A DNA stretch of 64,000 bases, taken from assembly GCF_031432215.1 (NCBI RefSeq), contig NZ_JAVKGN010000001.1, positions 1,293,421-1,357,420 on the forward strand, written 5' to 3'. The notes below the pieces were generated by a model, which saw only the letters and a list, made by a program, of their open reading frames with translations, was not told where the DNA came from and did no database searches. The position numbers were made by a program, and so were the translations under genes. Shown piece by piece: positions 16,043-17,684 of this stretch. The first letter of the stretch is position 1, and the number at the start of each line of letters is the position of its first letter. Origin of the DNA: Halodesulfurarchaeum sp. HSR-GB. Its GTDB lineage: Archaea > Halobacteriota > Halobacteria > Halobacteriales > Halobacteriaceae.

Positions 16043-16414
16043 ATGTTCGGAGGCGGCGGCATGAACCCGCGCAAGATGGAACAGCTCATGGACCAGATGG
16101 GGATCGACCTCGACGAACTCGACGCCGTCGAGGCCACGATCACCCTCGAAGACGGGACCAAACTCCACTTCGACGAGCCCGAGGTCACCCGCATGGACGC
16201 CCAGGGCCAGGAGACCTACCAGGTCGTCGGCGAACCAGCGGAACACGAGGCGGAGTCCGAGGAGAGCGAGTCCCCGGCCGAGTCCGGGACTGGGATTCCC
16301 GAGGCCGACGTCGAGATCGTTGCCGAGCGGGCCGGGGTTCCGACGGAGACAGCCCGACAGGCCCTCGAAGCGGCGGATGGCGACCTCGCGGCGGCCATCG
16401 ACGACCTCGAGTGA
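16043..16414 (+). CDS. nac: Archaeal nascent polypeptide-associated complex (alpha-NAC homologue)
   Basis: A 123-residue ribosome-associated chaperone for emerging polypeptides; archaeal NAC works as a homodimer. It begins '[21 protein letters not shown]' and has the NAC beta-barrel core (~25-75), an acidic Ser/Glu linker (~75-85) and a C-terminal UBA domain ('[34 protein letters not shown]'). The TGA overlaps the GTG start of trmI. Confidence 0.92.
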
Positions 16415-17130
16415 TTCTCCTCGTCCGCGGCGACCGGGAGTTTCTGGTCGAACCGGGTGCGGAACTCCACACCGATCTGGGGGTCGTGCACGTCCCCGAG
16501 GACGTCGAACCCGGTCAGCAGGTCGAGAGCCATCTGGGTGAGGCCTTCGGGGTCCGGGCCCTGCGGGGACCGGACCTGTTCAACCACCTGGAACGGACCG
16601 GCGCGCCGATGATGCCCAAGGACATCGGCCTCCTGGTCGGGCACACAGGCGTCGCGGCCGGCGACCGGGTGCTCGACGCCGGCACCGGGACAGGCGTGCT
16701 CGCGGCCTATCTCGGTCGGATGGGGGCCGCGGTGACGACCTACGAGCGTGACCCCGACTTTGCCGAGGTGGCCCGCGAGAACATGAAACTGGCTGGGGTG
16801 GCCGAGACCGTCGAGGTTCGGACCGGCGACCTGACCGAGGCGCTTGGGGACCTGGCTGACTTCGACGTGCTCACACTCGACACGGAAGACGCACCGACCG
16901 TCGTCGCTCGGGCACCCGATCTGCTCGTCTCCGGCGGTTTCCTGGCCGTCTACTCGCCGTTCATCGAGGCCGCTCGCGAGGTCGAACACACGGCTCGCGA
17001 AGCGGGTCTCGGGGACATCGAGACGACCGAGACCATCCAGCGGCGGATGGACTTCGACGACCGTGGGTCCCGTCCCTCCACGAAGGGCGTCGGTCACACG
17101 GGCTATCTGACCTTCGCACGGATGGTGTAA
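16411..17130 (+). CDS. trmI: tRNA (adenine-N1)-methyltransferase TrmI
   Basis: Class I SAM-dependent methyltransferase expected to make m1A57/m1A58 in the tRNA T-loop. The 239-residue protein has a small N-terminal beta domain (~1-75), the SAM loop '[15 protein letters not shown]' (~89-103), the acidic '[16 protein letters not shown]' and '[11 protein letters not shown]' in place of the usual catalytic D-x-P, and '[17 protein letters not shown]'. The start is GTG 16411, which overlaps the nac TGA as GTGA. Confidence 0.88.
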
Positions 17131-17189
17131 CGGAGGCGGTGGCACGTCCCCCACAAGTGGGCCGGCTTATTTCCACTATGGTCTGGTGG

Positions 17190-17294
17190 CTGTTCCCATG
17201 ACAATTGAGGCTGGGTGAGAGAAGTAGCATCCGCGAGAGCGGGTTCGAAGAACCCGCTCGAAGCGGTTCTCCACGCCTTCGGCGTGGCTTTTTT
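17190..17294 (+). ncRNA. Candidate small RNA with two hairpins and a T-run
   Basis: No protein gene fits between trmI and the TFS gene. A TATA-like GGCTTATTTCC (17164-17173) predicts a transcript start near 17195. The next ~100 nt contain a perfect 10-bp stem (17237-17246 with 17250-17259, loop GAA), an alternative partner for its second arm (17261-17268), and a GC hairpin followed by CTTTTTT (to 17294). This could be a small RNA or simply the structured 3' end of trmI. Confidence 0.3.
17271..17294 (+). terminator. Intrinsic-type terminator downstream of trmI
   Basis: CCACGCC-TTC-GGCGTGG forms a 7-bp stem (17271-17287) followed directly by CTTTTTT. It could end trmI transcripts or the candidate small RNA. 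Confidence 0.6.
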
Positions 17295-17313
17295 GGTCCA
17301 GATTTTTGGAGAG

Positions 17314-17350
17314 GGGGTTCCGCAGCGAGCGGTAGCGAGCGAGGAACCCC
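17314..17350. repeat. Inverted repeat near the end of the TFS gene
   Basis: GGGGTTCC (17314-17321) and GGAACCCC (17343-17350) are perfect complements. The loop holds a GCGAGCGGTAGCGAGC direct repeat of GCGAGC. On the minus strand the hairpin lies just past the TFS stop and is flanked by T-runs (CTTTTTCG and CCAAAAATC), so it may act as that gene's terminator. Confidence 0.55.
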
Positions 17351-17369
17351 GTCTCGAAAAAGGTGGGTG

Positions 17370-17684
17370 TCAGTGATCGTCTTCTCGCCAGCGGTGATCG
17401 CACTCCGTACAGACGAAAAAGCGGGTCTCTGACTCGTCGGCCGAGCGGATCTGCTGCATGTACCAGTAGGCCGTATCGTTCCCACACTCCGGGCACTCGG
17501 TCTCGGTCGTCGGCAGCCCGGTGTCACCGCCCGTTCCGGTCTCGATGACCTCGCTTACCTCCTGTTCCTCCGAGAGGACGTAGTTCGCGTCGGGGTTCTT
17601 GGGCTGTCGGTTCTCACAGCTGGTACACACCCAGAACTCGCCGTCGGCTCGCATCATCGAGCCGCATTCGTCACAGAACTCCAT
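17370..17684 (-). CDS. tfs: Transcription factor S (TFIIS/RPB9-like RNA cleavage factor)
   Basis: A 104-residue protein with two zinc ribbons. Cys4/Cys7/Cys20/Cys23 form the N-terminal RPB9-like ribbon and Cys64/Cys67/Cys92/Cys95 the C-terminal TFIIS-like ribbon. The Asp83-Glu84 pair in 'RSADESETRFFVC' is the acidic tip that stimulates RNA polymerase to cut backtracked RNA. Some haloarchaea carry several TFS paralogues. CTTAAG, about 28 nt upstream on the minus strand, is a good TATA element. Confidence 0.92.
   Translation of the reverse strand: MEFCDECGSMMRADGEFWVCTSCENRQPKNPDANYVLSEEQEVSEVIETGTGGDTGLPTTETECPECGNDTAYWYMQQIRSADESETRFFVCTECDHRWREDDH

Follow-up and report, generated by a model that had tools for sequence, protein, structure and literature searches.

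A dispersed, covarying hairpin element between convergent genes of haloarchaea: a candidate mosaic terminator or insulator

What role is played by a highly structured intergenic stretch that ends in a run of thymines and faces the 3' end of a convergently transcribed gene? The question is raised by positions 17164–17294 of the window (the whole stretch of 64,000 nucleotides of Halodesulfurarchaeum sp. HSR-GB DNA analysed here), which lie between trmI and the convergent gene encoding transcription factor S (TFS). An initial annotation had proposed a small RNA or an attenuator built on mutually exclusive stems. We find that the region belongs to a dispersed element of haloarchaea, of which it is a single copy, and that it is not a lone small RNA or a switch. 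Its most likely role, to which we assign a probability of roughly 0.55, would be that of a mosaic terminator or insulator between convergent genes.

The copy between trmI and TFS

The hairpins and the T-run of the region are real (Table 1), and the initial observation is, overall, partly confirmed. The core hairpin P1 begins 95 nt beyond the end of trmI. The positions first given for the two arms of its 10-bp stem are exact; the segment AGCGGTTC, proposed as their competitor, has the sequence reported but lies at 17262–17269, one nucleotide away from the location assigned to it (17261–17268). The terminator-like hairpin P2 and the CTTTTTT that follows it are present as described, in the layout of an intrinsic terminator, i.e. 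a stable hairpin, then C and six Ts. This is not the only such signal, however: the single terminator claimed initially is there, but a second T-run inside the long palindrome P4 had been overlooked. P4 occupies the same position in relatives as in the window.

Table 1. Features of the trmI–TFS interval (window positions)
Feature	Position	Strand	Evidence or putative role
Gene A, trmI (GCD14-like tRNA methyltransferase)	16414–17130	+	Pfam PF08704, E 1.9e-13; reading frame
P1, core hairpin of the dispersed family (46 nt)	17226–17271	+	R1 match, 65.3 bits, E 1.1e-16 in own genome
P1 foot AGCAT	17226–17230	+	
P1 4-bp stem, CCGC / GCGG	17231–17234 / 17263–17266	+	
P1 10-bp stem, GAGCGGGTTC / GAACCCGCTC, GAA loop; then foot TTCT	17237–17246 / 17250–17259	+	
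P2 hairpin, CCACGCC-TTC-GGCGTGG	17271–17287	+	
Six-T run after P2 (C between)	17289–17294	+	Putative termination site of + strand transcripts
P4, long palindrome	17298–17366	.	Putative terminator of the − strand gene; adjoins the TFS stop codon
T-run in P4	17303–17307	+	
A-run in P4 (T-run of the other strand)	near 17354–17358	−	
Gene B, transcription factor S (TFIIS/RPB9-type zinc ribbon), convergent	17370–17684	−	Pfam PF01096, E 3e-19

The segment 17226–17300 folds at -38.2 kcal/mol, compared with -24.6 (sd 3.1) for shuffled sequences (z -4.4, 0/200 as good), and the segment from P1 to P4 (17226–17366) at -78.4 kcal/mol (z -6.0, 0/200 shuffles as good). For 17164–17300, z is -2.4 on the + strand (2/200 shuffles as good) and -2.6 on the − strand (3/200), so that folding gives the + strand no advantage. 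Since a scan of the same 1 kb expects 0.5 (sd 0.7) hairpin-plus-T-run sites, a lone terminator-like hairpin is not remarkable. A tRNA search of the window gave no match. A known Rfam RNA was rejected, Rfam 15 giving no match at gathering score in the window and, in five and seven relative loci, miRNA-like chance matches far below gathering. A kink-turn was discarded by eye, the order of bulge and G-A pairs not fitting the kink-turn layout.

The initial annotation envisaged an attenuator or riboswitch-like switch working through alternative stems. Such an alternative can indeed be drawn, but it makes a weaker fold (-18.2 kcal/mol for the best fold in which it is enforced, against -26.4 for the P1 rod, a gap of about 8 kcal/mol) and its pairing is not conserved, pair 31–41 being C-C in 58 of 132 distinct copies. 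Moreover, the nearest downstream gene is convergent. Relatives thus contradict a switch, as conserved exclusive stems ahead of a co-directional gene are not found, and we regard it as very improbable.

A small RNA transcribed independently, from a promoter located upstream of P1, and ending at the T-run would agree with the terminator-like end, with an AT-rich stretch upstream, and with the 62 nt upstream of P1, of which 55 of 62 columns are identical in the sister species. However, the TATA-like GGCTTATTTCC from which a promoter was deduced reads GGCAAATTTCC in that species, the one compared, and no promoter is thereby established, nor is a shared one seen by eye upstream of other copies; coding and next intergenic stretches are equally or more conserved (trmI 673/717, TFS 310/318, next intergenic stretch 87/90). 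P1 itself is identical at 46 of 46 positions, which proves little on its own since neighboring stretches are conserved too; the third pair of P2 is A-T in the window and G-C in the sister species. Moreover, the 131-nt region first annotated is matched over its whole length (nt 6–131) in the sister species alone (G021, 94%), and the core is a multi-copy repeat found at many gene ends. Considering also two features described below, i.e. P1 doublets whose linkers of 26–29 nt were judged too short for two promoters and G-U pairs in no excess over A-C, a small RNA is at best a weak candidate, and an unlikely one.

A family of units placed at gene ends

In other genera, matches to the 131-nt region are partial, cover mostly nt 62–113 and occur at up to eight places per genome; the region is matched in 21 of 26 family genomes, including one (G004) whose only match is a coding false hit (L020). 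In the window's genome, the covariance model R1 detects one strong and three weak copies (E below 0.001). Across the class, 145 genomes out of 242, from 58 of 74 genera, have matches to it (E ≤ 0.01), a number of these genomes having weak matches alone (E 0.001–0.01). In a phylum-wide sample (E ≤ 1e-4), the 20 matching genomes out of 196 all belong to the window's own order. Copy counts in these many-genome searches are lower bounds, 25 or 31 candidates having been scored per genome; scored more deeply, three genomes placed in Halobacterium hold 24, 21 and 31 copies.

As seen by eye in relatives, a full unit reads P1 - P2 - P3 - TTTT - N6-8 - TTTTGC - P4 - GCAAAA, with the stop codon (or the tRNA 3' end) of the gene on the other strand at its far end; P3, typically GCCGACGA..GGAGGAGTGC, is missing from the window's copy. 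The feet of P1 are fixed and read GCAT..TTCAC in the majority of Halobacterium copies; its interior is replaceable. The strict pattern GCATCSGCGA-N5-35-GCSGTTCAC is matched in 16 of the 26 family genomes and never in controls, with stems that differ as widely as GAGCGCCGCAGGCGCGA and GACCCGAGTGG..GAAGGGTC. Neither the window's genome nor that of its sister species has a match of this form, since P1 ends with TTCTC in both. When the pattern is loosened, 26/26 genomes are matched (five matches in the window's genome and one in its control; two in controls overall), several of the matches resembling coding chance. When the closing pair is left free, the 46 distinct hairpins bracketed by the feet have C-G in 21 cases, T-A in 13, A-T in 4 and a non-Watson-Crick combination in 8. 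Of these hairpins, 32 are intergenic with a T-run and have a gene no more than 250 nt away, and 27 of the 32 face a convergent gene.

Some loci depart from this plan. By eye, P1 is split in L014 and L030 by an insert of about 80 nt that folds into hairpins, both P1 ends being recognizable, and the sequence after P4 in L060 (Natrialbaceae-type) is unlike that of the similar L054, L057, L061 and L067, in an insertion-like manner. A stretch like CAGGTCACG..GGTTGGTCCCGCTCTCCTACTTGAACCTACGCAG, whose other strand holds a TATA-like TTCAAGTA, recurs 5' of P1 in L007, L008, L010, L013, L023, L025, L027 and L028; an Rfam search of two of these loci (L013 and L027) returned nothing. In the window's genome but outside the window (G000:C1:466749-466980), L032 and L034 are shortened bracketed hairpins in tandem, about 200 bp apart, which carry a T-run and a palindrome, with a tRNA-like stretch apparently 3' of the second (by eye).

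The placement of the units relative to genes was counted over loci L001–L154 and L233–L262, excluding L020, the weak own-genome loci L035–L038, loci shorter than 1700 bases, cores scoring below 24 (e.g. L032–L034) and one edge unit. Genes were called here, and for the counts and doublets described below and the bracketed hairpins above, with a GC3-based ORF caller that misses some genes, the resulting exceptions staying in the counts; Aragorn tRNAs were added except for the doublets. Among the 136 units analysed (of 137 distinct R1-type units), two lie inside a called gene and 134 outside. A called gene lies within 250 nt on the P4 side of 117 of the 134, and it is convergent in 109 cases and otherwise oriented in 8. 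A binomial test against one half gives P 9e-24, a value that is too small because the units include copies at homologous, hence non-independent, gene ends of related genomes. The median distance from the end of P1 to the facing stop is 130 nt, and a run of at least four Ts occurs within 170 nt after P1 in 130/134 units, compared with 20/134 over the 170 nt preceding P1. On the side opposite P4, the 109 convergent units have a gene on the + strand in 57 cases, a gene on the − strand in 50 and no gene in 2.

An independent probe for the T-run junction, GAGTGCTTTT-N5-10-TTTTGC, matches 17 of the 26 family genomes, with up to 34 matches in one, and has no match in controls or in the window's genus. 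Thirty such loci were read: a convergent gene is faced by 28 of them, and in 21 the pattern detects a bracketed hairpin upstream, at least one of these hairpins (L291) resembling a chance match. Units also occur as head-to-head doublets, with P1s 26–29 nt apart in eight loci and 95 to 563 nt apart in five other places. At least four of the eight close doublets (L026, L068, L082 and L123) separate a NusA-like gene from that of ribosomal protein S12 (domains checked for L014, L026 and L082; S12, PF00164), and there one unit points at the upstream region of the S12 gene and not at a gene end.

Homologous gene ends differ in whether they carry a unit. A TFS homologue exists in 26/26 family genomes, and 23 of the 26 loci could be read by eye at the TFS end: long units are present in three (G000, G021 and G001), short P1 forms in three (G010, G017 and G008) and a remnant in G012, G016 is at a contig end, and no P1 is recognizable in the remaining readable loci. 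At the SAHase end (23 of 25 loci readable), exact brackets occur in six genomes (G017, G015, G018, G008, G011 and G019) and altered ones were recognized by eye in two more (G016 and G023); in the other 15 readable loci no unit faces the SAHase gene. Modules are gained or lost as wholes, and the interiors of copies at homologous ends vary by entire hairpins, in a mosaic-like manner. Separately, a structured-looking stretch like GGGACGGTGGATGCGGCGAGGCGGCGAGCCGTCCC..GCCGCCGGACAGC recurs in the TFS–trmI gap of Halobacterium (L184, L185, L187, L191, L196 and L199); it could be a small RNA gene, and five loci of this type gave no Rfam match above chance.

Covariation and the RNA-or-DNA question

For P1, 27 of 30 loci were aligned, leaving out the coding hit L020 and the interrupted L014 and L030. 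A lack of base-pair covariation in relatives had been named at the outset as an argument against a structured RNA; covariation is found. RNAalifold run on these 27 relatives returns the same rod as the structure written by hand, six of the 12 pairs have changed on both sides among 25 distinct rows, and 98.7% of the cells are paired, values for both-sided changes and paired cells that none of 500 shuffles reaches. A second measure, which counts further pair types, is reached by 59 of 500 shuffles, and this counts against the terminator or insulator account. In 132 distinct R1-type copies, pair 7–41 is C-G in 69, G-C in 59 and A-T in 3, and T5, G14, A15, G32, T43, T44, C45 and C47, all unpaired in the R1 model, are kept in at least 128. 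The initial interpretation is therefore partly supported: what is confirmed is that a conserved structure with covarying pairs precedes a terminator-like T-run.

Strong covariation of base pairs need not imply that the element functions as RNA, and here the wobble pattern favors no RNA strand. Over 134 distinct copies, the P1 cells comprise 1558 Watson-Crick pairs, 19 G-U, 13 A-C, 12 others and 6 gapped. If an RNA helix were under selection, far more G-U than A-C would be expected; the near-equality of the two thus gives no clear preference for a + strand RNA, and it suits recognition at the DNA level, correction of hairpins during replication, or functioning of both strands. In raw counts, uncorrected for base composition, the mismatches of P2 and P3 on the + strand are purine-purine in 142 cases, pyrimidine-pyrimidine in 27, G-T in 20 and A-C in 30, and those of P4 are purine-purine in 208, pyrimidine-pyrimidine in 130, G-T in 82 and A-C in 83. 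The purine-purine excess in P2 and P3 hints that the + strand is the one that folds. Because tandem G-A mismatches in a CGAG context are stable both in RNA and in single-stranded DNA, this excess points to a strand and gives no hint of RNA over DNA.

Terminator, mobile repeat and known systems

Three features make a mosaic terminator or insulator the likeliest role, namely the succession of hairpins and T-runs, the aim of 109 of 117 units at a facing gene end, and termination at T-stretches in Haloferax. In Haloferax volcanii, T-stretches terminate with 95% efficiency and 503 termination sites have a hairpin upstream (PMC7237163); in H. salinarum, antisense RNAs are over-represented over 3' ends (PMC6523106). 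In the mechanism we propose, RNA polymerase that continues beyond gene A (here trmI), or that transcribes antisense from elsewhere, would make the P1, P2 and P3 hairpins and stop at the T-run that follows, so that gene B (here TFS) would not be entered in antisense. P4 and its T-runs would end the transcript of gene B in the opposite direction, and P1, with its fixed feet and replaceable interior, may be the part recognized by a hypothetical factor. Besides the second covariation measure, three observations weigh against this account: G-U and A-C are about equally frequent (19/13; 20/30 in P2/P3), contrary to what would be predicted if one RNA strand were under selection; 50 of the 109 convergent units have a divergent gene upstream, leaving no obvious + strand transcript to stop; and many homologous gene ends do without the module.

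The same wobble counts are accommodated by the main, though less probable, alternative, that of a selfish REP/BIME- or PATE-like repeat, i.e. a single-stranded DNA hairpin with a fixed foot that an IS200/IS605-type (HUH) transposase would move or copy and that would be tolerated where genes end. Covariation would then result from DNA-level hairpin correction or recognition of single-stranded DNA, and not from RNA folding. Such a repeat would also account for the many copies, the fixed feet with replaceable stems, the head-to-head doublets of eight loci with their 26–29 nt linkers, and the patchy presence at homologous gene ends; moreover, Haloquadratum has PATEs with near-terminal palindromes that are related to IS605-type elements (PMC3119063). 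The strongly one-way placement of the P4 side argues against it, as does a Pfam scan of ten neighbors that found no transposase: two are universal stress proteins, three KaiC-like ATPases, one each an SAH hydrolase, an AAA ATPase, a class V aminotransferase and an NAD kinase, and one is unmatched. An omega-RNA or IS200/IS605 right end, with neighbors of 141 and about 460 amino acids as TnpA and TnpB, was rejected on the same scan. Finally, one 176-nt unit had no match in plasmid and phage collections, and spread on plasmids or phages was rejected on this basis. Termination and selfish spread are not exclusive: a spreading repeat may have been kept where it terminates transcription.

More tentatively still, the units might form a modular boundary system shared by haloarchaea, in which a hairpin of free sequence with the fixed feet GCAT and TTCAC would be read single-stranded by a hypothetical dedicated factor. 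It would mark the borders of facing units by ending antisense read-through, its modules spreading as mosaics between gene ends. If the elements are terminators or insulators, each genome offers dozens of natural, alignable copies with which to test how archaea separate convergent genes, and the conserved hairpin is a bait for a binding factor. If they are mobile, they are a REP-like family spread across an archaeal order.

How do the units compare with known systems? The REP/BIME elements of bacteria are dispersed, multi-copy, extragenic imperfect palindromes that form mosaics, often as inverted pairs, and REP hairpins have a fixed short foot motif, GTAG. The haloarchaeal units are likewise dispersed extragenic palindromes in many copies per genome (134 of 136 outside called genes), with mosaic structure, inverted pairs and a fixed short foot. 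Unlike REPs, they have T-runs, a second palindrome and one orientation toward a gene end; their stem is replaceable, and their foot is GCAT..TTCAC and not GTAG. The window's own genome has few copies. REP elements are also treated in the RepRanger paper (PMC12306157). PATEs, described in PMC3119063 as terminal transposon remnants without terminal inverted repeats, resemble our units, as do IS605-type termini, in being haloarchaeal and non-coding with a palindrome near the end; by that description, they are set apart by the lack of transposases among the ten neighbors of our units and by the one-way placement facing genes. The termination sites of Haloferax volcanii also combine T-runs with upstream hairpins at intergenic 3' ends, but the accessible text of PMC7237163 mentions no fixed-foot hairpin family; the P1 family could overlap with the 37 structure clusters reported there. 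A description of the family was not found in Rfam or in the literature covered by text searches and five sequence strings, a corpus with few subscription papers and no supplements. This suggests that the P1 family is apparently undescribed as such, though of a known type, that of dispersed terminator/REP-like elements.
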